Notes: generated by a model from the sequence alone, not told the origin. Positions 2,910 through 27,395 are shown, counted from the stretch's first letter. The stretch: DNA of 64,000 nucleotides from Phycisphaerae bacterium (GCA_018003015.1 JAGNEZ010000030.1:1-64000), one strand, 5' to 3'. Program-made: numbers and translations.

Positions 2910-5600
2910 TTACTGCGGTGTTGCGGGCGGGTCTTCGCTCGGCAGCGAGATCGTGATCACAAGCCCCTGACAATCAGCACGCCCGCTGGCCATGATCGCA
3001 CCGCCGTGAGCCTCCACAATACCTCGGCAGATCGACAAGCCCAGGCCCGTGCCGGCCACCTGCCGATCCATCGCTCTTACACGGTAGAACTTGTCGAAGA
3101 TCTGTTCAAGCTGTTCGGCTGGGACTCCGGGGCCTTCGTCCATCACCTCGATCACGTGATGTCGGTCCTGTTGTTTCGCGCGGACATCAATCGTCGTGCC
3201 CGGCGGCGAGTACTTGGCGGCGTTATCCAGGAGATTCACCAATACCTGCTCGATCAGGACGAAGTCTACCCGCACCAGCGGCATGGCCGCGGCCACCTCT
3301 ACCAGCACGCAGTGCTTCGCCAACTGGCGACGAAGCCGGGCGACGGCGGAGCCGATGATGTCGCCGAGCTCAACCCAGTCGCGATTCAGTTGGAGCTTGC
3401 CCGATTCCAGCCGGGTGATGTCGAGGAGATTGCCGACAAAACGGTTGAGCCGCTCCGCTTCTTCCTGGATGGTCGCCAGGAGGTCGGCACGTGTTGGCTC
3501 GTCGTAGTCGCGACCGTACTCGCTCAGGCTGCTGGCCGATCCGACGATGGATGCCAGTGGTGTGCGCAGGTCATGTGAGATGGAAGATAGCAGTGCGGCC
3601 CGGAGTTTCTCGGTCTCGCTGACGACCCGGGCCTGTGCCATCTCCTGCCGTAGCCGCGCCCGCTCGATACCGACGGCAGCCTGGTCCGCCAGCGATTCCA
3701 TCAGCCGGCGGCGCCGCGGAGAGAACTCGCCGGACTCGGACGCGAACTGAACGCCCATCACACCGACGGCTGTCTGGCCTGTCGTCAGCGGCAGAAACGT
3801 CCACGCAACGCCGGGCAGAGTGTCCGAACCGCGCCCGGTGGGCTGGTTGTGCTGCCAGGACCAGGTTGCCGCCGCTCGCTCATGCTCGGTGAGAGTCGTG
3901 GTTTCGGGATCGCTCGCCGCGGGCGAGAGCTTCAACGAGGACGGCAGCAGCACAACGACGCGAGCTTGTAGAATCCCTGCAACCTGACGAACCACGGTGC
4001 GGGCAACGGCATCCGTGTCCGGGGCCGCGGCGATGGCACGGCTGAGTTCAAACAGAGCGTTGGCACGGTCTTCACGACGGCGGGCGGCTTCGGCCTGTTT
4101 ATGCATTCGCGCGGCAATCTGGCTCGTGATGATGGCCACGATGAAATACACGATGAAGGCCAGCGCTTCCTGGGAACTGGCGATGGAGAACGTGTACAGC
4201 GGCCGGATGAAGAAGAAGTTGTAGATCAGGGCGCTGAGCCCACAGGCAAAGATCGACGGCCACAACCCAAGCCGCACGGCCACTGCGAGCACGCCGATCA
4301 GGAACACCATCGACAGATTGGGCAACGACAGGTGCTGCTGGAGAAACTTGGCCACAAACGCGCTCAGCACCACAATCACCGCAGCCCAGCCGAAATTCCG
4401 CACTCGGAACAAGGATTCCCGTGACGGCGTGTGCGAGGGTGTTTCAGGATGCTCGTCCTCGGCATGGATCACGTAGACGTCGATTGGGCCGCTGAGCCGA
4501 ATCAAGTCGTTGACGAGAGCGCCGCGCCAGACCTCCTGCCACCACGAACGGCCGGACTTGCCAATGATGATCTCGGTGACGTTGCGCGAACGGGCGTAGC
4601 GGATCAGGTCTTCCGCCGGCCGGTTGCCGGGAAGATTGACTGCCTGCCCGCCTAATTGCTCCGCCATTCGCAGCGTCCTGGCGACCCGATCGCGATCGGC
4701 CTCTGAAGCACGTTGGTAAGCGGGGGTCTCCACGAAGACCGCCAGCCACTCGGCATTGCGACGGTCGGCTCTCCGTTTGGCGGCTCGTACCAGCCTGGCC
4801 GACGTTGGGCTGGCGCAGACGCAGACCATGATGCGGTCCTTGGCCGCCCATGGCCCCTCGATCGCCTGCGCCTTCATCCAATCCTGCATCTGCACGTCGA
4901 CGCGGTCGGCCGTACGCCGCAAGGCCAGCTCGCGAAGCGCGTTCAGATTGCCGGGGCGGAAGTAGTTGTCGATCGCACGCGCGGCCTGCTCGGGAATGTA
5001 GACCTTGCCGTCCTTGAGGCGTTGAATGAGTTCCTCCGGCGGCAGGTCGATCAGCTGGATCTCGTCCGCCTCGTCGAGAATGCGATCCGGCAGCGTCTCT
5101 CGCACCTGCACGCCGGTGATGCGGACGACGGTGTCATTGAGACTCTCAAGGTGTTGGACGTTGACCGTGGTGTACACATCAATGCCGGCGGTGAGCAGTT
5201 CCTGAACATCCATGTATCGCTTGGGATGCCGGCTGCCGGGTGCGTTGGTGTGGGCCAGTTCATCGACCAGGACAAGCTGCGGCCGACGGGACAGAATCCC
5301 GTCGATGTCCATCTCGGTCAGTTGCGTACCGCGGTACTCGACGCTCGTGCGCGGAACGACCTCCAGCCCTTCGAGTAGGGCTTGGGTTTCGGCTCGACCG
5401 TGGGTCTCGACAATGCCGACCGCCACGTCGATACTCTCCCGCCGGCGTGCTCGCGCCGCCTGCAGCATCGCATAGGTCTTGCCGACTCCCGGAGCCGCGC
5501 CCAGGAACACCTTCAATCGGCCGCGCTGCGACCGCTGGGTCATCGCCAGCAAGGCATCGGCCGACGGGCGTCGTTCCTGATCTGTGTGAGAGTCGCCCAC
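2910..5600 (-). CDS. kdpD: KdpD osmosensitive K+ sensor histidine kinase
   Basis: An 896-residue sensor kinase with the full KdpD architecture. The N-terminal KdpD domain has a Walker A (GAAPGVGKTYAM, ~33-44). A universal-stress-protein-like segment spans ~250-370 and a four-helix DUF4118 membrane region ~400-500. A GAF-like domain follows (~520-660). Then come HisKA with the phospho-acceptor His in SISHDLRTP (~675) and a HATPase_c domain (LLDNAAKYSP, DEGPGVP, GTGLGLSIC). The start is GTG at 5600, chosen because AGGTG sits about 6 bases upstream. The protein senses potassium limitation or ionic strength and phosphorylates KdpE. It lies 27 bases after kdpC. Confidence 0.96.
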   Translation of the reverse strand: MGDSHTDQERRPSADALLAMTQRSQRGRLKVFLGAAPGVGKTYAMLQAARARRRESIDVAVGIVETHGRAETQALLEGLEVVPRTSVEYRGTQLTEMDIDGILSRRPQLVLVDELAHTNAPGSRHPKRYMDVQELLTAGIDVYTTVNVQHLESLNDTVVRITGVQVRETLPDRILDEADEIQLIDLPPEELIQRLKDGKVYIPEQAARAIDNYFRPGNLNALRELALRRTADRVDVQMQDWMKAQAIEGPWAAKDRIMVCVCASPTSARLVRAAKRRADRRNAEWLAVFVETPAYQRASEADRDRVARTLRMAEQLGGQAVNLPGNRPAEDLIRYARSRNVTEIIIGKSGRSWWQEVWRGALVNDLIRLSGPIDVYVIHAEDEHPETPSHTPSRESLFRVRNFGWAAVIVVLSAFVAKFLQQHLSLPNLSMVFLIGVLAVAVRLGLWPSIFACGLSALIYNFFFIRPLYTFSIASSQEALAFIVYFIVAIITSQIAARMHKQAEAARRREDRANALFELSRAIAAAPDTDAVARTVVRQVAGILQARVVVLLPSSLKLSPAASDPETTTLTEHERAAATWSWQHNQPTGRGSDTLPGVAWTFLPLTTGQTAVGVMGVQFASESGEFSPRRRRLMESLADQAAVGIERARLRQEMAQARVVSETEKLRAALLSSISHDLRTPLASIVGSASSLSEYGRDYDEPTRADLLATIQEEAERLNRFVGNLLDITRLESGKLQLNRDWVELGDIIGSAVARLRRQLAKHCVLVEVAAAMPLVRVDFVLIEQVLVNLLDNAAKYSPPGTTIDVRAKQQDRHHVIEVMDEGPGVPAEQLEQIFDKFYRVRAMDRQVAGTGLGLSICRGIVEAHGGAIMASGRADCQGLVITISLPSEDPPATPQ

Positions 5601-5627
5601 GTACGCACCTGGCTTTCCATAGCCATT

Positions 5628-6209
5628 TTACCTCGATTGGCCTGACGGTTGGAGCCTGTCAAGGGCCATGTTCAGTTCGAGTACGTTGATGCGAGGCTCG
5701 CCCAACAGGCCAAGCTGTCGGGGTTCCGTGTATTGCCGCACCAGAGCCTCCAATTGGTCTGTCGGCGTGGAACGGGCCCGGGCAACACGGGGAATCTGAA
5801 AAGCTGCCGCCGCCGGAGAGATGTGCGGGTCCAGCCCACTTCCTGAGGTGGTCACAAGCTCGACCGGCACCGATTGACCGGGGTTTTCGGCCCGCAGCCC
5901 CTCAGCGTATGCCCGCACCCGATCCACCAGAGCCTTGTTGGTCGGCCCTAGATTCGATCCGCCCGACACCATCGCGTCATAACCACTGCCGGCTGCCGAT
6001 GGACGTGGGTGGAAGTACCGCGGAGAACTGAAAGCCTGGCCGATCAGCTCCGAACCGATGATGCGATCGCCGTCCTTGAGCAGGCTTCCGGTGGCCTGGT
6101 GGCGAAACACGGTCTGAGCGATGGCTGTGACCACGAGCGGATACAGGATGCCAGTGATGATGGTCATGATGACGAGCATCACCACTGCCGGTCTGATCTG
6201 ATTGAACAT
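5628..6209 (-). CDS. kdpC: Potassium-transporting ATPase subunit KdpC
   Basis: 193 residues, the usual KdpC size. One N-terminal membrane helix (residues ~8-30, [16 protein letters not shown]) anchors a periplasmic domain. Family landmarks are GSELIGQ (~50), FHPRPSAAG (~66), GSNLGPTN (~82) and the C-terminal [14 protein letters not shown]. KdpC stabilises the KdpFABC complex and helps K+ binding. The ATG at 6209 has GGAG 7 bases upstream. The gene starts 22 bases after the kdpB stop. Confidence 0.97.
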
Positions 6210-6231
6210 GACGGCGCTCCAGCCAAACTGG

Positions 6232-8280
6232 CTATGCCAGGTGCATTGCGGTAATCACGAGGTCGATGATCTTGATGCCGACGAACGGCGCGATCACGCC
6301 TCCAAGTCCATAGATCAGCAGGTTGCGACGCAGCATGGCCGCCGCACTGAGCGGTCGATACGCCACGCCGCGGAGGGCTAGCGGGATCAGTGCTATGATG
6401 ATCAGCGCGTTGAAGATCACCGCCGAGAGAAGCGCGCTTTGCGGCGCGGCCAGATGCATCAGATTCAGCCGGTTCAGCTCCGGGTACGTCGCAGCGAACA
6501 TGGCCGGGATGATCGCGAAGTACTTGGCTACGTCGTTGGCGATGCTGAACGTGGTCAGCGACCCGCGCGTGATGAGCAACTGCTTGCCGATGGCAACGAT
6601 CTCGATCAGCTTGGTCGGATTGCTGTCGAGGTCGACCATGTTGCCGGCCTCCTTGGCAGCCGACGTGCCGGTGTTCATCGCTACGGCCACGTCGGCTTGG
6701 GCTAACGCGGGGGCGTCGTTCGTTCCGTCGCCGCACATCGCGACCATCTTGCCCTTGGCCTGCTCCGCGCGGATCAAGGCCAGCTTGGCTTCAGGCGTGG
6801 CTTGGGCCAGGAAATCGTCCACGCCGGCCTCGGCCGCGATGGCGGCGGCGGTCAGCGGGTTATCGCCGGTGATCATCACGGTACGGATGCCCATGCGGCG
6901 CATTTCGGCAAAGCGTTCCTTCGTGCCGCCTTTGATGACGTCCTTCAGAAAGATGACACCCATCACTTGTGCGTTCGATGCCACCACCAGAGGTGTGCCA
7001 CCCGCACGAGCAACATCATCGACGATCTGGCGCACCTCGGCGGGAAACACCCCGCCTCCGGCCTTCACCCACTCCTCGACCGCCTCGGCAGCCCCTTTTC
7101 GGATCTGGGCCAAGGGCATGTTGATTCCGCTCATCCGGGTCTGGGCGGTGAACGGGACGAATGCCCCCTGGAGTTCCCACAGATCGCGAGCACGAAGCCC
7201 GTATTGCTCTTTGGCATGCACGACGATACTACGGCCCTCCGGCGTCTCGTCAGCGAGTGAGGCGAGTTGAGCCACATCCGCGAGTTGATGGGCGGTGACG
7301 CCCGGGGCCGGAACGAACTCACTCGCCTGTCGGTTCCCCAGCGTGATCGTGCCCGTCTTGTCGAGCAGAAGCGTATCCACGTCGCCCGCGGCCTCGACCG
7401 CCCGGCCCGACATGGCAAGGACGTTATGCTGGACCAGCCGGTCCATGCCCGCGATGCCAATGGCCGAAAGCAATCCACCAATGGTCGTCGGAATGAGTGT
7501 TACCAGCAACGCGATCAGCACCGTGACCGAGACCGTACCACCCGCGTACTTCGCGAACGGCTCGATCGTGCTGGTGGTCATGAGGAACACGATGGTCAGG
7601 CCGACGAGCAGAATCCCCAGGGCGATCTCGTTGGGTGTCTTGGATCGCTTGGCGCCTTCGACCAGGGCGATCATGCGATCCAGAAACGTCTCTCCCGGTT
7701 GTGACGTGATCTTCACGCGAATCCAGTCGGAGAGGACCTTCGTGCCGCCGGTGACCGCGGAACGGTCGCCGCCGCTCTCGCGGATGACCGGGGCCGACTC
7801 ACCGGTAATGGCAGATTCATCGACGAAGGCAATACCCTCGACCACGTCGCCATCACCGGGGATGATGTCCCCGGCCTCAACCAGAACGATGTCACCTCGG
7901 TCCAGTTGCGTGGCCGGTACCGGCTCGTAGAGATGACTACCGGCTCCATCGGGGTCGAGCAGCAGCTTGGCGAGTGTGTCGCCTTTGGTCTGCCGCAGCG
8001 AGTCGGCCTGCGCTTTGCCGCGGCCTTCCGCCATCGCCTCCGCGAAGTTGGCGAAGAGCACCGTGAACCAGAGCCACAGCGCAATCTGGAGCACGAACCT
8101 CCAACCCTGGCCGGTTGGGCACAGGATCTCGCGTACCAGCAGCGCGGTTGTTGCGAGGGCTACCACCTCGACCACGAACATGACCGGGCTACGGATCAAC
8201 GTTCGCGGGTCGAGTTTCCGCAGCGACTCGGCCACTGCCGCTCGTATGATGCGAGGCTCAAACAGCGAATGCTCCTTCAT
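6232..8280 (-). CDS. kdpB: Potassium-transporting P-type ATPase subunit KdpB
   Basis: 682 residues from the ATG at 8280 (MKEHSLFEP). The longer frame up to 8340 has no family support. This is the catalytic P-type ATPase of KdpFABC. It has the phosphorylation motif DKTGTITLG, the actuator motif ITGESAPV, the hinge [24 protein letters not shown], and seven expected membrane helices. The length equals that of the E. coli protein. It hydrolyses ATP to drive K+ through KdpA. It follows kdpA after 92 bases, the widest gap inside the operon; that gap shows no clear regulatory structure. Confidence 0.98.
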
Positions 8281-18526: not shown

Positions 18527-19243
18527 CTAACCGTCCGCCATCTCAATTTCAGCGATGACCTCGGCCGGAGATAGATCGTCACCAAACAAAAGTCGACAGA
18601 ACGCCCGGTGATACTTGCCGGCCGTCGTGATCGATGCGCCCAGCAGATCCCGAAATTGACGGTGAGTGAGTGCACCGTCACTCAACGGCATCGCCACTCG
18701 AAAGTGCATGTCACCAGTGGACATGTCGAAGTCAAAACAACCCAGCGTCAGACCGTGGTTGGCTCTTGCTACGGCCTCCGCCATCTGGACCCGTCGAGGC
18801 TCCGGCGTGACCACCGGCACGCCCACCATGACCGCCAGAATGGCCGGATCCTGTCGAGCCGCAATGATGACCGGGAAAACACCACTCTCGCCACGGAAAT
18901 TCGTGTCAATGGCCGGGGAATCGCTGCGAACGTGGCACCGCACGCCGTCCTCGTTCAAAAACACACAGACCTGATCGATGATCTCTCGCGCCTTCTCCAT
19001 GGCCAAGCCCGCTCCGTCCACTCCTCGGGCACCACCCGTCTTCATACCCCGGGAACCGGCTCGCACAGGAGCCGCATGTCTCACAACGGTCCCGGACGCC
19101 GCCCGTGAGGCCGAAACCCGTCTCCCTTGCTCCCTGGCCGCCGAGCCACCTCGCTCCACACCCCTCCGACGCTGCCAAGCCCTCACCAATGCTACGCACC
19201 ACCAGGAGACCAGCCCACCAAGGACGACAAGTACTGTGCTCAT
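18527..19243 (-). CDS. Membrane-anchored YbjN-domain protein
   Basis: 238 residues from the ATG at 19243 (MSTVLVVLGG). Residues ~3-22 form a membrane helix (VLVVLGGLVSWWCVALV). A ~60-residue Arg/Gly-rich linker follows, then a C-terminal domain (~85-238) resembling the YbjN / type III chaperone-like fold (FDFDMSTGDMHFRVAMPL, TAGKYHRAFCRLLFG). No Shine-Dalgarno is visible before this ATG; internal starts exist, such as the one at MKTGGARGV. It is first in the operon with the glycosyltransferase and ABC genes. Its role is unknown; stand-alone YbjN-like domains often act as chaperones or adaptors. Confidence 0.75.
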   Translation of the reverse strand: MSTVLVVLGGLVSWWCVALVRAWQRRRGVERGGSAAREQGRRVSASRAASGTVVRHAAPVRAGSRGMKTGGARGVDGAGLAMEKAREIIDQVCVFLNEDGVRCHVRSDSPAIDTNFRGESGVFPVIIAARQDPAILAVMVGVPVVTPEPRRVQMAEAVARANHGLTLGCFDFDMSTGDMHFRVAMPLSDGALTHRQFRDLLGASITTAGKYHRAFCRLLFGDDLSPAEVIAEIEMADG

Positions 19244-19320
19244 CAACAGTTATCATAACATAAACAGACCCCTGTGCCCACCCGGCACCCCACCGCCCGC
19301 GTTCGGATATCGGGACAGGT

Positions 19321-19822: not shown

Positions 19823-21505
19823 TCAGTGTTGACTCAGGGCCGTTCGTGCTCGGGCTGCGTTCTCGCTTTCCGGAGCCTGCTCGCAGATGCGGTGCCACAT
19901 CGCCTTCGCCCGGTCAATCATGCCCATGTTCTCCAGGGCGATGGCCAGGTTCTCGCGGAAATCGAGATTCTGCGGATTGCCGCTCACTGCGTGAGTGAAA
20001 TGCTCCACCGCCAGATCGAATTGCTGACGGCCGGCAAACAGCGTCCCCAGCCGATAGTGCAGGTCCACATAACGCGGATTGAACTCCAGAGCCTGCTGCA
20101 GCGTCTCAATCGCATCATCGGTGCGACCGGTTTCGTGCAGGGCCAGGCCCAACTTGATCAGCGCCTTCGCATAGGACGGATTGATCTCCACCGCATGCTG
20201 GAAGTGGATGATGGCTTCGTCGATCCAGCCACGATGACGAAGCAACAGGCCCAGCCGGTAGTGCACGTCCGGGTGGTTGGGGTGGAGCTCCGCCACTTGA
20301 CGGTGCCGTTCGATCTGCTGGTCGACCAGATCGTCCAGCCGATCGTCGGTGGCTCCGGCGACGTCGGGCGGTGCAGTCTCCAGGTGCCGGCTGGCTTCCT
20401 GCTGAACACCGCACTTGAGCTGGATCCGGGCAATCTCGGTGTAGAGCAGCGTGCTGTTCGGCTCAATGCTCGAGGCCAGATCAATGCTCGCCAGGGCTTC
20501 CGACTCACGCCCCGCCTCAAACTGGGCAACGCCCAAACCGACGTAAGCGGTGAGCAGCCGATCATTGATCTCAATGGCTCGCGCAAACCAGGTGGCCGAC
20601 TCTACATACTGGCCGGCCCGCAGATAGTGCGTGCCGATCTTGACCATCGCCTCGAGATACCCCGGGTGAAGCTGGATCGCCTTCATGTAGTACTGCAGGG
20701 CCGCCTGATCATTGCCCACCCGCGTGTAAAGATCGCCCAGCTTCAGGTACTGGTCCGGCGCCTCCGGGTGCTTGTGAAGCTGCACGTGAAGCTGCTCGAT
20801 GGCCTCGCGGAGCAGGCCGGCTTGCTCGTACGTGTCCGCCAGGTCGGTGCGGGCCTGCCAGTTGTCCGGCTCAATGGTCAGAGCGTTCTCGAAAGCCTGA
20901 ATGGCGGCGTCGGGGTCTTGGTTCCGCAGGTACAGATTGGCCAACGTCAGGTGCAGATCGACGTCGCCGGGATCGTCGGTGAGAAGCTCCTCGTATTGAT
21001 CGATGGCATCATCCATGCGATTCTGCCGCAAGTGGATGGCGGCCAGCCGCTCGCGCGCGTTCCGCAGGCCCGGGCAGGTTCTCAAAGATTCTCGATAGTA
21101 GCTCTCGGCCTGACCAGTGTGGCCCAGCCGCTCGGCACAATACCCAAGGGCGAACTGGATGGCCGGGTCCTTGTCGTCCAGGGCGACCGCGACGCCCAGC
21201 TGCTCGTAGGCCTCGGTCAGCAGCCCGATCGACTCGAGACAGCAGGCCGCCGCGATCCGGGCCAGCGTCGATGTGGGGTCCAGCCGGGCGGCCTCGAGAA
21301 ACGCGTCCCGGGCTCGGCCCAGATCGCCCGTCTGCAGGTAGTGAAATCCTAGCTCGCGATGCAGGTCCGCTCGGCCCGGTTCCGCCGCCACCAGACGGTT
21401 CAGGGTCTCCAAATCCCGCACCTCGGTCTGCTGCATCTGTTCCTGGAAGGCGTCGGATAGGCGGCTGATCCAGCCCCGACCCAGAGTTTCCAGCAAGTAG
21501 GACAT
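19823..21505 (-). CDS. TPR protein (about 13 repeats), last gene of the GTPase array
   Basis: 560 residues from the ATG at 21505 (MSYLLETLG), preceded by GGGGGAAG. After ~35 residues the protein is an almost continuous run of 34-residue tetratricopeptide repeats. Their repeated A/G/Y/F pattern shows in HYLQTGDLGRARDAF, NLYLRNQDPDAAIQAF, HYLRAGQYVESATWF and LALHETGRTDDAI. There is no signal peptide and no catalytic domain, so it is a cytoplasmic scaffold or recruiter. It starts 10 bases after the stop of another TPR gene, showing tight coupling. The sequence gives no hint of its partner, but the genomic partner set is the GTPase/GAP1 array upstream. Confidence 0.88.
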   Translation of the reverse strand: MSYLLETLGRGWISRLSDAFQEQMQQTEVRDLETLNRLVAAEPGRADLHRELGFHYLQTGDLGRARDAFLEAARLDPTSTLARIAAACCLESIGLLTEAYEQLGVAVALDDKDPAIQFALGYCAERLGHTGQAESYYRESLRTCPGLRNARERLAAIHLRQNRMDDAIDQYEELLTDDPGDVDLHLTLANLYLRNQDPDAAIQAFENALTIEPDNWQARTDLADTYEQAGLLREAIEQLHVQLHKHPEAPDQYLKLGDLYTRVGNDQAALQYYMKAIQLHPGYLEAMVKIGTHYLRAGQYVESATWFARAIEINDRLLTAYVGLGVAQFEAGRESEALASIDLASSIEPNSTLLYTEIARIQLKCGVQQEASRHLETAPPDVAGATDDRLDDLVDQQIERHRQVAELHPNHPDVHYRLGLLLRHRGWIDEAIIHFQHAVEINPSYAKALIKLGLALHETGRTDDAIETLQQALEFNPRYVDLHYRLGTLFAGRQQFDLAVEHFTHAVSGNPQNLDFRENLAIALENMGMIDRAKAMWHRICEQAPESENAARARTALSQH

Positions 21506-21515
21506 TCTTCCCCCT

Positions 21516-22763
21516 TTACGCAGGCAGCGAGGCAAGTGCTTCCTTGGCCGTTCGATAGTTCCGATTCAGACTCAACGCCCGCTCAAACGCCAGCCGGGCT
21601 CGCCCCGTCTGGCCGCCGGTCTGGTACAGCCGCCCGATCAGGCAATGGACGTCCGGATAGTCCGCTCCCTTCTCGATCGCCTGCTCGAGCCGCTCGATGC
21701 CCATCGCCCATTGGTCGGTCTGGCTGTAAAGCTCCGCCAGCTGAATGAGGGCGCTGACGTAGCCGGGATTGATCTCGACCGCCTGCTCGGTGTGCTGGAT
21801 GGCGTCCACCCGGCGACCGAGCCGCCGGTACACCGCTCCACAGTGGAAATGGAGGTCAGCGTATTCCGGATGGTTCTCCAGGGCCCGCTCCAACGTCGCC
21901 GCCAACGTCGAAAAGACCTCCTCGTCAACCTCGCTCTCCGGCAGGGCCAGGAACGCGGAGACGAAGTCCGGCTCACTCGCCAGCAGCTCGCTCAGCCGAT
22001 CAATCTCGCCTGGCTCCGCAGCCCCCGGATGGGCAGGCAGCCGCCAGGCGATCCGCTCTCGACGACCGCCGATCACCTCACCCTGCCCCAGCACGCTCAA
22101 CTGGAAAGCAATGCGGGCATTCCACGGATCCAGCGCGTGAGCCTGCTCGAGGTACTCCAGGGCCCGGTCGGACCGACCAGTCACCGCACAGATCTGGGCC
22201 AGACGCTCGTACGCCCCGGCGTGGGTCGGCTCGCAGGCAATGGTCATCTCAAAGCACCGTTCGGCTTCCGCAAACTCGTCCTCCGCAGCAAGCATGATCC
22301 CGAGCTGGTACTGAAGCTCCGCATGGTCCGGCTGCCGGGCAATGCCCTCCCGAATCGTGCTCATGGCTCCGAGTGGACTGCCCTGCTTGTATTGGGCAAG
22401 GGCCAGCCGGATCCGCAACCCGGCATTCCCCCGATCCTGCCCCAGCATCGACTCGAGTTCACGAACCGCCATGTCGTAACGCCCGTCGGCGACGTAGCAG
22501 TTCACCAGGAACCTCGCGATCCCGCCGCCATTGGAGTTGACCCCTGCAGCATTCTGGAAGTGCTTGGTGGCATCCTGGTACTTCTGCGTCTCGAACAGAC
22601 GCACGCCCAGGTGGTAGTGAGCCTGACCCAGGTAGAACCGCGACAACAGACCCTGGGGGCTGCTGTTCATCGTCACCAGCGGCGTCAACAGCTCAATGGC
22701 CTTCTCGTACCGGCCGGCATTGTACGCGGACATGCCCAGCCGATATTGTTCCCGCTTGCTCAT
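21516..22763 (-). CDS. TPR protein (about 9-10 repeats) of the GTPase array
   Basis: 415 residues starting MSKREQYRLG, with GCGAGGAT 4-5 bases upstream. TPR units run from residue ~7 (GMSAYNAGRYEKAIELL) through ~190 and again in the C-terminal third (CGAVYRRLGRRVDAI, LAELYSQTDQWAMGI, GRLYQTGGQTGRARLAF). A non-TPR insert of about 90 residues sits between them (~205-295). No membrane segment or signal is present. It is 162 bases downstream of the GAP1-like gene and 10 bases before the next TPR gene. It probably acts as a protein-interaction scaffold. Confidence 0.87.
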   Translation of the reverse strand: MSKREQYRLGMSAYNAGRYEKAIELLTPLVTMNSSPQGLLSRFYLGQAHYHLGVRLFETQKYQDATKHFQNAAGVNSNGGGIARFLVNCYVADGRYDMAVRELESMLGQDRGNAGLRIRLALAQYKQGSPLGAMSTIREGIARQPDHAELQYQLGIMLAAEDEFAEAERCFEMTIACEPTHAGAYERLAQICAVTGRSDRALEYLEQAHALDPWNARIAFQLSVLGQGEVIGGRRERIAWRLPAHPGAAEPGEIDRLSELLASEPDFVSAFLALPESEVDEEVFSTLAATLERALENHPEYADLHFHCGAVYRRLGRRVDAIQHTEQAVEINPGYVSALIQLAELYSQTDQWAMGIERLEQAIEKGADYPDVHCLIGRLYQTGGQTGRARLAFERALSLNRNYRTAKEALASLPA

Positions 22764-22925
22764 GCGATCCTCGCTTCACCAGACCGGCCCTTCCGTGGAC
22801 CGTCAACCCGGAGGCCCAAGTCGCCTTGCCCACGGCCATGGGTGAACACAGACGGTGACTCCATCGCTTCTATCGGTCAGTGGAAAGCACCTGATAAGGT
22901 CAGGACCAGGCCAGATGCCCGAGAA

Positions 22926-23861
22926 TCACGTGGGACCGATAACCTCGCGCTGGGCATACCAGGCGCGCAGCAGGTTCACCCACGGCAGGAACTCCGGCCG
23001 GGGAGCCGGGGCCGGTTGGTCCACCCGGCGCAACTGAACGTCCTGCCCGGCAATCAGACGCTGGGTCTGGGCATCCTCCCTCGGGAGCAGGACAACCTGC
23101 ATCCTTCGGCCAGGGGCATACTTGAGGCCGGCCGATACGTCGATCCCCCGGCGAACACCAGGCTTCAGACACAGGACCGCCCACTCGAGCAGACGCAACG
23201 GCTCCCGCACGCCCGCCAGAACCAGCCGCCGCCCGGACTGAAGAGCATCCGCCATGCTCCAGATCCACTCCGCCTCCGTCTGCGAGGCGGGCGGGCGGAA
23301 ACCCCCGCAGCCTTTGCCCCAACTGGGCTTCATGACCGGAAGGACAAGTCGCTCCACGCGGGGAATCACCTTGAGGATCGGCCCGTGCCGGGAGATGAGC
23401 TCGGCCAGCAGGGCGTGAATACGCACCGGATTGTGCTGGAAAGCGGTCAAGTCCGCAGCCGTCAGCAGGACCATGTGGGTATAAACCCGCTGGCCACCCC
23501 GTCCCGTATGCTCCCGCCCGGCATGACTGCAGCAAGCCACGCAGTACCGCCCGCTGGCCATCGCGTAAGCCAGCATACCCACAGCGTGGGGACCGGAGTC
23601 GCAGAGACTGTCGTGGGAAGGCGATCGCTGGGTGATCTCGACCCTCTCGTCAGGCCGCAACCCCGGACTGATCGCGATCAGCCGGTATCCCTCACCCATC
23701 TGCGAGTGAACCGACGTGAACACCGCCTGATCGCACTCGATCACGTCCGGAAGCGACCGATCGGCGAGTCCGCCGGTCGGTGCCGGCTCGGCCTGGACCG
23801 CAAGGGTGACCGCGGGACCGGGCAGCGGCGGCTCAGCAACTACAACTGGTCGGTCACCCAT
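22926..23861 (-). CDS. GAP1-N2-like GTPase-associated protein
   Basis: 311 residues from the ATG at 23861 (MGDRPVVVA). This start gives a 22-base overlap with the upstream GTPase gene; the frame continues further upstream only as overlap. Residues ~46-130 carry the pattern I associate with the N-terminal domain type 2 of GTPase-associated protein 1: QAVFTSV, GEGYRL, SPGL, QRSPSHDSL, and GREHTGRGGQRVYTHM. The C-terminal half (~150-311) is less distinctive and does not show the long middle and C-terminal GAP1 domains, so this is a short, stand-alone form. In described systems GAP1 proteins are always linked to a GTPase, as here. The family call is from memory. Confidence 0.68.
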   Translation of the reverse strand: MGDRPVVVAEPPLPGPAVTLAVQAEPAPTGGLADRSLPDVIECDQAVFTSVHSQMGEGYRLIAISPGLRPDERVEITQRSPSHDSLCDSGPHAVGMLAYAMASGRYCVACCSHAGREHTGRGGQRVYTHMVLLTAADLTAFQHNPVRIHALLAELISRHGPILKVIPRVERLVLPVMKPSWGKGCGGFRPPASQTEAEWIWSMADALQSGRRLVLAGVREPLRLLEWAVLCLKPGVRRGIDVSAGLKYAPGRRMQVVLLPREDAQTQRLIAGQDVQLRRVDQPAPAPRPEFLPWVNLLRAWYAQREVIGPT

Positions 23862-24721
23862 TGAAACGGCTCCAGTACACCCTGAAGGGCAGTGTGCAAC
23901 GGGATCGGCGTGACGTAGTCCTCGCCGGGAGCAGTCGCGTAACCCAGCGAACCGACCACGCTGGTGGCGAAGAACTCGACATTCGAGAACCGGTTCTCGC
24001 ACAGGTTCCAGAGCCGATTCAGGTTGGCCTGGGCGAACCGCCTCGGGTGGTCAAAACACTCCGGACAGTGATCCGCCTTGCAGAGCACGATCGCCGTGGG
24101 GGTCTGCACCCGCTCATCGCGCTTGGCCTGGTGCATCGAGTCGATGTAGCTCAGCATCTTGACCGCGAAGAAGTCGGGCTGTGTCGAGCCGTTGGCAGCC
24201 ATGGCCGCGTCCACCAGGAGGAGCGTGCCTGCCGACAGCTTGAGCAGGCTGCGGATGACCTTGAAGGTGTTGGGCGTCGAAACCTCGGCCGCCAGGGACT
24301 CGCCGGCCATGTCCGGCATCAGCAAGTCAATCCACTTGGGGGCCGGCTTCCGCTGATAGATCTGGTAGTACGCCCAATACCAGCTGTTGGCTTCCATCGC
24401 GGTCTTGGGCGGAAAGGTCCGCCGGGCCATGTGGCTGATGACATTCTGCTGCAGGTCCACGGAGTAGGCGCCTTTGGGAATGGCCTCGTAGTCCGCGGCC
24501 CGCTGGGTGAGCATGTCCAGGAGGAACCCAAGGTAGACCGTCTTGCCGACGTTGCTCTCGCCGAGAATGGTGACAATCTGCGGATCACGTTCCTGGGCGG
24601 CCACGTCGTGGACGATGGCCAGCGGAGCCTGGCAGTCACAGCACACCATGGCCCCCACGAGGTTTCGCGCCCCACAGATCAGGCAGCTGCTGTCCACCGC
24701 CGCTTCGGCGTAGGTCGTCAT
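23840..24721 (-). CDS. Zinc-ribbon GTPase (DO-GTPase-like)
   Basis: 293 residues. An N-terminal zinc ribbon (C13-x2-C16 ... C27/C28-x-C30) precedes a P-loop GTPase: G1 GESNVGKT (54-61), G3-like DMAG (137-140) after hydrophobic IDLLMP, G4-like CKAD (214-217) in place of NKxD, and G5-like TSVVG (253-257). This matches small GTPases of the 'double-GTPase' class described with GAP1 proteins, though only one G domain is present. The ATG overlaps the stop of the FGE-like gene as ATGA, and the GAP1-like gene overlaps its own 3' end, so all three are translationally coupled. It probably acts as a nucleotide-dependent switch for the array. Confidence 0.82.
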   Translation of the reverse strand: MTTYAEAAVDSSCLICGARNLVGAMVCCDCQAPLAIVHDVAAQERDPQIVTILGESNVGKTVYLGFLLDMLTQRAADYEAIPKGAYSVDLQQNVISHMARRTFPPKTAMEANSWYWAYYQIYQRKPAPKWIDLLMPDMAGESLAAEVSTPNTFKVIRSLLKLSAGTLLLVDAAMAANGSTQPDFFAVKMLSYIDSMHQAKRDERVQTPTAIVLCKADHCPECFDHPRRFAQANLNRLWNLCENRFSNVEFFATSVVGSLGYATAPGEDYVTPIPLHTALQGVLEPFQWVTDQL

Positions 24722-25755
24722 TGCGGGCTCCTTTCGGCGTCGGCGGCATCGCTCGGGGTGAGATCCAGCACGCAGCGGAAGCCGACGTTATGAGCTCGGG
24801 TCAGACTGGCCAGGCCGGTCCGGAAGGTGCTGGTGGCCTGGGCCGGGAAGTACGTGTCAAATGCTCCACCGCGAACCTCCTTGAGAAGCATGTCTCCGAC
24901 CACTGTCCTGGCGAGTTCGTCGATCGCGGTGAAGTCGAAGGAGGTCCACTCCCACACGTTGCCGATGAGCTGGTGCACGCCGTTGGGGGCGGCGCCGGAC
25001 TCGTATTCGGTCACCGGGACGGTGTGCCCGATGTTCGAGGCCCAGATGTTACATCGGCTGATGTCCAGGGCATCGCCCCACGGATACCGGCGAAGTACGT
25101 GAGCGGAACTGCGGATCCGCCAGCTGGCGGCCATCTGCCATTCTGCCCCTGTGGGCAGGCGGTAACCGGCCCATTTCGCGTAAGCCGCGGCCTCGTAGTA
25201 GGATACCCCCACGACGGGGTGATCGCTGATCAGCTTGTTGTGTCGGCCTTCCCGCCAGAAACGCGGACCCGTATGCCCGGTCTGGTCCTTCAGATCGATC
25301 AGGTGCGGCCAGATGTCCTGGGGCCACAGATCGAGATCCTCATACCCGCCGTTGTCCAGGAACTTCTGGAACTGCCCGTTCGTGACGCAAGTTCGAGCCA
25401 GGAGAAAGGCATCGGTCTCGATGTCCAGCTCGGGCAGACCCGGAGCATCTACGATCGTCTGGCTCAGGGATACAAAACCCTCCGGAACCAGGGCGAAGTG
25501 GGCATCGATCTCCTCGATCGCCGCCTGGAATGCCGACTCGATCAGCGGGTGGTCCACCCACTGCTGACGGTTACGCACAACGTGGCCGTAACGCTCCAGC
25601 TGGATGTGCCGCTGAAGCGGGTCCTTCTCCAGAACCAGCGGCTCGGCAGGTTCGTAGGGTTCGGGTCTCCGGGCCGCCTTCTTGGCGACAGTTCGTGCCC
25701 GCTGGGTGGCGGGGTCCGGCGGTCTACGGCTGAATAGTCTCAGGGCCATGGTCAT
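24718..25755 (-). CDS. FGE/SUMF1-fold protein lacking catalytic cysteines
   Basis: 345 residues from the ATG at 25755 (an ATG at 25749 is equally possible; GAGGGAA precedes). After a ~90-residue basic N-terminal extension the protein is a formylglycine-generating-enzyme-sulfatase (C-type-lectin-like) domain. Landmarks are HFALVPEGFV, LLARTCVTNGQFQKFL, HPVVGVSYYEAAAYAKWAG, RLPTGAEWQMAA, YPWGD, GNVWEWTS, VRGGAF and NVGFRC. The paired active-site cysteines expected between RGG and GFR in true FGE are absent (only the Cys of GFRC remains), so formylglycine formation is unlikely and a binding role is more probable. It lies 33 bases after the coiled-coil gene and its stop overlaps the GTPase start. 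Confidence 0.85.
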   Translation of the reverse strand: MTMALRLFSRRPPDPATQRARTVAKKAARRPEPYEPAEPLVLEKDPLQRHIQLERYGHVVRNRQQWVDHPLIESAFQAAIEEIDAHFALVPEGFVSLSQTIVDAPGLPELDIETDAFLLARTCVTNGQFQKFLDNGGYEDLDLWPQDIWPHLIDLKDQTGHTGPRFWREGRHNKLISDHPVVGVSYYEAAAYAKWAGYRLPTGAEWQMAASWRIRSSAHVLRRYPWGDALDISRCNIWASNIGHTVPVTEYESGAAPNGVHQLIGNVWEWTSFDFTAIDELARTVVGDMLLKEVRGGAFDTYFPAQATSTFRTGLASLTRAHNVGFRCVLDLTPSDAADAERSPQ

Positions 25756-25788
25756 TTCCCTCGGGTCAGTTCCCGGTTTTCCGCATCC

Positions 25789-26736
25789 TCACACCCCGAT
25801 CGCCCGTCGCTTGGCATCCCTGCAGAGTTTCTGGAATCGCTCCAGGGCCGACTGGGCTTTCTGCTCCTCGGTCGGCACGCCCGGCAGGCCGTGATCGGCC
25901 TGCGCCGGAGCGCCTCCGCCTGTATCGGTCACGCCGTAGCGAGGCAGCAGATCGTTCTTCTGCTCGGTCACCTTGGACAACTCGCCCTGAAGGTCACGCT
26001 GCAGAGCCGCTAGGCTTTCCTGGGCAGCGTTGAGTTCCTGCATCCGGGTGTCCCAGTCCTTGCGGATCTGGCTCAGCTCCTCGTGCTGCTTGGAGAGGAA
26101 CGCCTCGCGCTCGTTCAGCGTTGCAGTCAGCTCCTCGAGCGAGGCCTGCCGCTTACGCAGCGATTCCTCGTCCTGAGCCAGCGCCTTTCTCTGGGCTTCC
26201 AGCGAAGCCTGCAGGGCGGCCACTTCGCCACGCTCCTCCTCCAGTTGGGCTTCGCTGGCGGACAACGTCCCCTTCTTGGATTCCCACTCCGACCGCTCCG
26301 CTTCGAGCTGGCTGGCGGCCTTGGCGACGGCTTCCTGGTCGGTCTTGAGTCGAGTCCGCTCCTGCTCGACCGCGGCCAGTTCGCGCTCCAGCGTCTCGCG
26401 AGCGGCCTGCAACTCGGTCTCCTGCCTGGCCAGCGCCGCCTGACGGGCGGTCAGTTCCTGCTCGTTCAATTCGAGTTTCTGTTGCCGCGATTCGAACTGC
26501 TCGCAGAGGAGGGTTTCCTGCTGGCAGAGCGAGTCCCGTTCGGCTATGAGCTTCTCGCGATACTCCTCGAGTGCCGACCGGCAGGACTCCAGGGCATCCG
26601 CCCTGGCGCTCAGCAGTTCGCGCATCGACTGCATCGCCGAGACCACTTCCTGCCCAAGTGACTGGATGTGCTCGATATCCACTGTTGCGGCCGGCACTTC
26701 CTGGACTGACACGGATTCCGTCTTCTTCTGACTCAT
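25789..26736 (-). CDS. Long coiled-coil protein of the GTPase array
   Basis: 315 residues from the ATG at 26736 (MSQKKTESVS), with AGGTAAGG directly upstream. Residues ~30-260 form a nearly uninterrupted coiled coil with Glu/Gln/Leu/Ala-rich heptads (LEQERTRL-like units, EEERGEVAALQASLEAQRKA). A flexible Gly/Pro patch (GVTDTGGGAPAQ) follows, then a short basic C-terminal helix (ALERFQKLCRDAKRRAIG). There is no signal peptide or membrane segment. It probably works as a rod or scaffold. It starts 5 bases after the stop of the Pro/Ala-rich gene. Confidence 0.82.
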   Translation of the reverse strand: MSQKKTESVSVQEVPAATVDIEHIQSLGQEVVSAMQSMRELLSARADALESCRSALEEYREKLIAERDSLCQQETLLCEQFESRQQKLELNEQELTARQAALARQETELQAARETLERELAAVEQERTRLKTDQEAVAKAASQLEAERSEWESKKGTLSASEAQLEEERGEVAALQASLEAQRKALAQDEESLRKRQASLEELTATLNEREAFLSKQHEELSQIRKDWDTRMQELNAAQESLAALQRDLQGELSKVTEQKNDLLPRYGVTDTGGGAPAQADHGLPGVPTEEQKAQSALERFQKLCRDAKRRAIGV

Positions 26737-26741
26737 TTGCC

Positions 26742-27395
26742 TTACCTGCCCCTCGAGAACCACGATTTCCTCTCCTGTGCCGGTGCCTTGGTGCTTGCCT
26801 TGTTGGTCTGGTATTCGGCCAGCAACTCCTTCACGCTCTTCTTGCTGGGTGCGAGCCGCCGCATCACCTTGATCGCCTTAGCCGTTTCCGGATCCAGCGA
26901 TGCCAGCAGTTGCTCATCTTCAGTGGGAGGCGGTGCTGGCGGCGGCGGTTTGACTTCCACGTTGACCGTGCCGGTGAACTTGACCGGCGCGACGTTCGGC
27001 TTGACGACTTCGGGGGACGCCAGCCGATGAATGGTGGATTCACCGGCTTGCGACTTAACGTCTGGCTGGTTGGCTGACGGCTCGACAGCGGCCAGTTTCG
27101 TGGCCGAAAGCCCCTCCGCGGGTGGTTTCGTCTCAGCGGGCACCTTGGCTTCGGTCCCGGGGCTGGCGGTGGTCGGCAGCTCGAGAGTCACCGGCTCTTC
27201 ACCTGCGGGCTCATCCTCGGCAACGGTGGCCGGGGCGAGCACACGGGCCGTGAGCGAGGCCAGCAACCGCTGGGCGTCGAGCATCGCTTCCGTCCAGACG
27301 GCCAGCTTCGCGTCCACATCGGTGAGCGCACGCGTAATCTGACCATCGTCCACTGGCACGGAGATCACATGCATGTCCACTGTCGCCTCGGCCAT
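26742..27395 (-). CDS. Pro/Ala-rich linker protein, first gene of the GTPase array
   Basis: 217 residues, unlike any family I recognise. Residues ~15-55 are predicted helical (ITRALTDVDAKLAVW, LLASLTARVL). Residues ~58-160 are low-complexity Pro/Ala/Thr/Glu with a PPPPAPPP stretch, and residues ~160-205 form a conserved-looking helical segment (DPETAKAIKVMRRLAP, KSVKELLAEYQ). It ends in a short basic tail, KSWFSRGR. It has no signal peptide. It is first in the array, behind a promoter-like element at 27487-27516, and 5 bases ahead of the coiled-coil gene. The layout of two helical ends joined by a flexible linker suggests an adaptor. Confidence 0.72.
   Translation of the reverse strand: MAEATVDMHVISVPVDDGQITRALTDVDAKLAVWTEAMLDAQRLLASLTARVLAPATVAEDEPAGEEPVTLELPTTASPGTEAKVPAETKPPAEGLSATKLAAVEPSANQPDVKSQAGESTIHRLASPEVVKPNVAPVKFTGTVNVEVKPPPPAPPPTEDEQLLASLDPETAKAIKVMRRLAPSKKSVKELLAEYQTNKASTKAPAQERKSWFSRGR

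Follow-up and report, generated by a model that had tools for sequence, protein, structure and literature searches.

The closest described relatives of the locus considered here, a run of minus-strand genes at positions 19823-27395 of a 64,000-nucleotide stretch from a Phycisphaerae bacterium (GCA_018003015.1, JAGNEZ010000030.1:1-64000; hereafter the window), are the GAP1-N2 systems of Kaur et al. 2020 (PMC7159879). The shared features are a zinc-ribbon DO-GTPase with a conserved Walker B Glu, a GAP1-N2 protein directly downstream and, in planctomycetes, an FGE (FGS) domain, and through the core pair the module belongs to the same GAP1-N2 DO-GTPase kind. One or two zinc ribbons are described for those GTPases, and the module GTPase has one. 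Unlike the described systems, the module is without a protein of fibronectin type III (FNIII) repeats, an effector or a tubulin/HSP70/kinase theme; it adds a constant coiled-coil protein and a tail-bearing spacer protein, and it is conserved, with mainly vertical descent, where those systems are variable. An earlier sequence-only reading of this DNA had called the array undescribed, which is only partly right, as one clause of Kaur et al. 2020 refers to GAP1-N2 systems of planctomycetes that have FGS (FGE) domains. Longin or DENN domains are not mentioned in that paper. Our search of the literature on bacterial longin/DENN or GAP1 proteins, with most subscription journals outside it, returned only that paper together with eukaryotic, Asgard and MglA/MglB papers. 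We propose, with a probability of about 0.5, that the module is a core GTPase switch passed on mostly by vertical descent in Phycisphaerae, a distant form of it occurring in Planctomycetia. The switch would be membrane-proximal and would combine a longin-DENN-like GTPase-activating protein (GAP) with a coiled-coil scaffold.

Three other groups of proteins bear on this proposal. With the eukaryotic longin-DENN GAPs (Avl9, DENND6A, C9orf72-SMCR8, FLCN-FNIP and GATOR1), GAP1 shares a predicted fold, an invariant β4-β5 Arg and a Ras-like GTPase partner; unlike them, it is bacterial, shorter, without a Pfam DENN match and known from a predicted model. TagF of type VI secretion (9t0n, 6iz8) is the solved structure closest to the GAP1 model and is described as a repressor of the type VI secretion system that binds Fha (PMC5995506); unlike TagF, the module has no such system beside it. 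The closeness of the two folds also suggests that TagF may itself be longin-DENN-like. MglA/MglB, too, is a bacterial pair of a Ras-like GTPase and a GAP devoted to it, a role predicted for GAP1, but MglB is a roadblock-domain GAP (PMC9481161), whereas GAP1 matches longin-DENN folds and no roadblock family.

The five-gene unit and its inheritance

The conserved unit is five genes and not seven, and relatives keep them in the order ADAP–CC–FGE–GTPase–GAP1. Among 90 distinct GTPase loci, counting in each case those whose contig extends far enough, FGE lies upstream of the GTPase in 84/84, GAP1 downstream in 82/82 and CC upstream of FGE in 72/78; any other neighbour family reaches at most 12 loci, and the one that does resembles a metabolic enzyme, as judged from sequence. 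Within the order the module is almost all-or-none: of 114 genomes, 74 have both GTPase and GAP1 and each of the two is alone in one, the exceptions being a genome whose GTPase match is cut at a contig end (G012) and one that is 72% complete (G006). The genes in the window are as follows.

ADAP, 26742-27395, minus strand: short N-terminal helix region, Pro/Ala-rich spacer and conserved C-terminal tail (EDEQLLASLDPETAKAIKVMRRL...KSVKELL...RKSWFSRGR)
CC, 25789-26736, minus strand: coiled-coil protein of 315 amino acids from ATG 26736 (open reading frame opening at GTG 26763), with the conserved C-terminal peptide ERFQKLCRDAKRRAIG
FGE, 24718-25755, minus strand: FGE-fold protein, C-type-lectin-like fold, formylglycine-generating Cys pair missing, N-terminus MALRLFSRR
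GTPase, 23840-24721, minus strand: Ras-like DO-GTPase with N-terminal Cys4 zinc ribbon; G1 GESNVGKT, G3 DMAGE, G4 CKAD
GAP1, 22926-23861, minus strand: GAP1-N2 and divergent GAP1-M; predicted longin domain at residues ~40-159 and DENN-like domain at ~194-308
TPR1, 21516-22763, minus strand: Pfam tetratricopeptide repeats (TPRs); neighbour of the module in its own genus only
TPR2, 19823-21505, minus strand: from ATG 21505 (open reading frame opening at TTG 21535); neighbour of the module in its own genus only

All seven genes of the sequence-only reading were thus confirmed across 19823-27395, together with the motifs that it quoted (GESNVGKT, DMAG, CKAD and GREHTGRGGQRVYTH), but its list of spacings held one '5' too many: with starts refined to ATG codons at 26736 (CC), 23861 (GAP1) and 21505 (TPR2), the six intergene spacings are 5, 33, -4, -22, 162 and 10. 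The families that it had named all scored above the Pfam cut-off in a scan that covered nine window proteins (FGE-sulfatase 4e-39, DO-GTPase1 7e-11, DO-GTPase2 1e-9, GAP1-N2 2e-11 and many TPRs); in the same scan, ADAP matched no Pfam family and CC gave generic coiled-coil matches only. Its linkage of the GTPase/GAP1-N2 pair with FGE and coiled-coil partners is borne out by the neighbourhood survey, but its inclusion of the TPR genes is not. TPR1 has single orthologues in 28/41 relatives, including genomes without the GTPase, and those in the compared relatives are scattered, either on separate contigs or far from the module's site, the outcome that the sequence-only reading had itself named as refuting; a seven-gene unit was therefore rejected, and the TPR pair is a genus-specific neighbour.

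The module is nearly always present as one copy per genome. Beyond the order, 291 genomes of the phylum were sampled and the GTPase profile matches 7 of them, which belong to two families and lie at the distant, Planctomycetia-type level; named matches at 39–40% GTPase identity are Pirellulales or Planctomycetales. The nearest named contig, at 99% GTPase identity, is RA.bin145 (Planctomycetota), and the other named relatives are mostly Phycisphaerae or Phycisphaerales. On the GTPase tree, family labels change 10 times, where the least possible is 6 and shuffled labels give 28, and module inheritance is largely vertical. All seven genes are under purifying selection, with ratios of nonsynonymous to synonymous substitution rates (dN/dS) against a same-genus genome of 0.026 for the GTPase, 0.08 for FGE, 0.09 for CC, 0.07 for the TPR genes, 0.31 for GAP1 and 0.35 for ADAP; selection on the GTPase and FGE is strong.

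One genome (G010, 7% contamination) has two module copies (L040 and L041) with divergent GTPases, and the module is also found on contigs L095, L105 and L147, labelled Alphaproteobacteria, Binatota and Deltaproteobacteria, which are probably misnamed planctomycete metagenome-assembled genomes.

The GTPase and the predicted fold of GAP1

Across GTPase homologues, GxxxxGKT, DxxGE and KxD are invariant and there is one Cys4 ribbon; the DMAGE Glu and two CxxC occur in 76/76. The GTPase model (predicted local distance difference test, pLDDT, 92) is Ras-like, with Z ~15 to Ras, Arl, Rag and others, and Foldseek lists MglA and YcjX too. Against PDB sequences, the GTPase profile had no match at 0.01, and the GAP1 profile, searched as far as E 1, matched only designed or helical proteins, so that fold comparison was needed. 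The GAP1 model (pLDDT 89, predicted template modelling score 0.85) runs β1-β2-α1-β3-β4-β5-α2, as in a longin domain, followed by an alpha/beta domain, and ends at residue 311 with no d-DENN part recognised up to there, relatives having longer C-termini. Its best Foldseek matches are TagF, C9orf72-SMCR8, FLCN-FNIP2, GATOR1/KICSTOR and DENND10. VIA-align gave Z 8.4 to TagF (232 residues) and to a Lokiarchaeal longin, 8.3 to DENND1A (241 residues), 8.0 to DENND1B (242) and 7.6 to GATOR1, with unrelated folds at Z <5 and the top rows all longin, DENN or TagF-type; PA0076, at rank 25, we take to be TagF. It counts against this comparison that a Z of ~8 is by itself within reach of unmatched models, and the case for a longin-DENN-like fold is made not by Z alone but because one superfamily fills the match list and because of the position of a conserved loop.

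That loop, β4–β5 at residues 117–123, is the most conserved element of GAP1 (mean 0.86), and its E117 and R121 are present in 75/75 homologues, all of which also have the GAP1-N2 domain. The arginine finger of DENN GAPs sits in the longin β4–β5 loop (Avl9 preprint, PMC12803157), and Arg147 of SMCR8 has been observed within the ARF1 active site (PMC8213707); R121 would correspond to such a finger by position and invariance only. Canonical GAP1-N2 proteins have the loop Arg too, within [DE]-x-x-x-R or a motif close to it, and profiles of window-type and canonical GAP1 (N2+M) align over 234 residues, loop on loop. We therefore regard the fold as predicted to be longin-DENN-like, a relation that holds at the level of the modelled fold and not as a family assignment by sequence. 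Pfam gave GAP1 no match to DENN families and no roadblock domain. A GAP1 of this predicted fold, with its most conserved segment at the DENN arginine-finger loop, would be new.

If the longin-DENN relation is true, GTPase regulators important in lysosomal signalling, cancer and amyotrophic lateral sclerosis would have bacterial kin, which would bear on the origin of eukaryotic membrane-traffic control. So would a module that has been described as eukaryote-only; DENN and d-DENN have been described as known from the DENN module alone (Zhang 2012, PMC3521125). A single arginine would also offer a testable catalytic mechanism for a widespread, uncharacterised bacterial GTPase family.

Other GAP1 proteins were seen alongside. 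Another, weaker GAP1-N2 protein of 544 amino acids is encoded elsewhere in the window's own genome (L071, G000:C43:1-15000, ~5033-6667), and it keeps the loop Arg (DDQGR). In contrast to the window type, two loci hold canonical planctomycete GAP1-N2 systems with GAP1-M, one (L066) with a GYF_2 protein and an FHA protein that has a weak DO-GTPase2 match, the other (L067) with a DO-GTPase. Canonical GAP1 was also sought on plasmids, with no match.

The FGE-fold protein and the tail-bearing spacer

The FGE protein certainly belongs to the FGE fold family and shares the FGE-sulfatase fold (E 4e-39) with FGE, EgtB and SenA enzymes; unlike these, it has no Cys pair and no match to an EgtB-type DinB domain. 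Its motif RGGxFDTYFxxQ, without the Cys pair, is found in 122/128 proteins by a strict pattern, the other six being motif variants or pattern artefacts. A formylglycine-generating enzyme was rejected because the catalytic Cys pair is absent, and the lack of catalytic cysteines in the FGE protein of this module is a new finding. The protein is highly conserved across homologues and not diversified. Eight Planctomycetia-type relatives have a strongly hydrophobic N-terminus that resembles a transmembrane hairpin, and the Phycisphaerae proteins begin with a short motif of the MALxLFxRK type; attachment to the membrane may follow from these features.

CC terminates in a conserved QKLCRDAKR-type peptide, and the Planctomycetia ending is similar by eye. 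At its C-terminus, ADAP has an acidic–LD–RRL–ELL stretch, which is conserved, followed by its basic/aromatic tail. At most loci of one family (f8), a short ADAP was not found, and a coiled coil of 545-1,632 residues, mostly divergently transcribed, bears the same tail. Among 91 tail proteins, 50 are short (median 217 amino acids, rich in P/A/S/T) and 41 long (median 1260 amino acids), and 80/91 have a tail with W/F and at least three K/R. ADAP is the short form of a spacer protein that keeps its tail while its length varies from ~200 to >1,600 residues, which is also new and an unusual architecture, in which a short disordered linker is swapped for a giant coiled coil. The N-termini of ADAP and the giant coils are weakly similar, and homology between them is not claimed, the best E being only 0.0013.

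Coiled coils of 735-786 amino acids with an ADAP-like tail also occur in two genomes of another family (f2) that are without the GTPase (L186:7241-9448, L188:1922-4282), where type IV pilus (PilB/PilT/PilC-like) genes, or a PilB-like fragment and a SurE-like gene, are close by. The same genomes have syntenic coiled coils of 1,543-1,605 amino acids with a variant basic/aromatic tail (L187:4767-9584, L189:5094-9725).

A proposed core switch and its alternatives

In our model, the DO-GTPase would alternate between GTP and GDP states, and GAP1 would bind it via the longin and DENN-like domains, placing the invariant Arg121 of the β4-β5 loop in the GTPase active site and acting as a true GAP. The catalytically dead FGE-fold protein, its N-terminus at the membrane, would be the constant partner of the GTPase, and CC and the tail-bearing spacer (ADAP, replaced in relatives by a coiled coil that can reach ~1,600 residues) would form a scaffold at the inner membrane whose assembly, placement or release the switch controls. 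Of this picture, linkage, co-occurrence, conservation, the sequence families, the missing FGE cysteines and the common tail are observations; the folds and the site of the arginine come from structure models, and GAP activity, contact with the membrane and the scaffold as output are inferences. Constant parts, a housekeeping context, vertical descent and purifying selection on the GTPase and FGE together favour a core cellular switch, which would be a version set apart from the conflict systems under which this GTPase family is filed, and a role in cell structure is more likely for the module than one against phage. Of the sequence-only reading, the GTPase switch with scaffolds survives as the best interpretation, as does the conserved linkage of the DO-GTPase/GAP1-N2 pair with FGE and coiled-coil partners. 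Its conflict role does not: under such a role, as proposed for these systems by Kaur et al. 2020, FGE would sense or be the effector and the GTPase/GAP1 pair would set a threshold. It is consistent with this that the core pair and FGE domain are those that PMC7159879 names for planctomycetes and that the GAP1 profile is homologous to canonical GAP1-N2+M proteins. However, PADLOC returned only generic coiled-coil and TPR matches at the locus and none in ten further window genes, and the neighbours of the module are housekeeping genes, on which grounds a defence island was rejected. The genes that recur at the module are CC, FGE, GTPase, GAP1 and the spacer; the scan of nine window proteins gave no match to FNIII, and there was no recurrent or variable effector gene linked to the module at the 90 loci, and FGE conservation, near-constant single copy and mostly vertical descent also argue for a conflict system being unlikely.

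Several points weigh against a core GAP-gated switch. The GTPase was not detected in 39/114 genomes of the order, so the module is dispensable, and the tail is also borne by coiled coils from genomes without the GTPase, so the spacer may serve a separate function. GAP1 and ADAP change faster than the other genes (dN/dS 0.31 and 0.35). The GTPase carries Glu at the position of Ras Gln61, and eukaryotic DENN proteins are mostly guanine nucleotide exchange factors. GAP1 might thus be an exchange factor or an effector/adaptor whose invariant loop serves to bind the GTPase and has no catalytic part in hydrolysis, and the Rab exchange factors DENND1A and DENND1B among its structural neighbours, like the Glu just mentioned, would fit. 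We consider this the most serious of the alternatives but still a doubtful one, as the top-conserved element, the β4-β5 loop with its invariant Arg, is what is stated to distinguish DENN GAPs. Least probable, by a little, is that the module signals to motility or surface machinery as a polarity module of the MglA/MglB type with a longin-type regulator: MglA is among the matches of the GTPase model, and two f2 genomes (L186, L188) have tail-bearing coiled coils that stand alone near type IV pilus genes, but these genomes are without the GTPase module, no motility gene recurs beside it in Phycisphaerae (although five Planctomycetia loci have the FliM/FliN-like gene described below), and GAP1 has no roadblock domain.

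A broader and decidedly tentative extension of the core switch is that GAP1 proteins might be bacterial longin-DENN GAPs akin to FLCN/SMCR8/NPRL2/Avl9, which in Planctomycetota would gate a membrane tether of exchangeable length, either a disordered spacer or a coiled coil, in the manner of Rab/Arf and golgins.

Two neighbouring genes were also recorded. At five Planctomycetia loci (L160, L161, L163, L164 and L165), a gene that by eye is FliM/FliN-like in its N-terminal sequence lies beside GAP1 on the opposite strand, ~2.2 kb downstream of the GTPase start. In the window, a YbjN-family gene (18527-19246, minus strand) lies downstream of the TPR pair, and its orthologue is likewise placed in a same-genus locus (L032).

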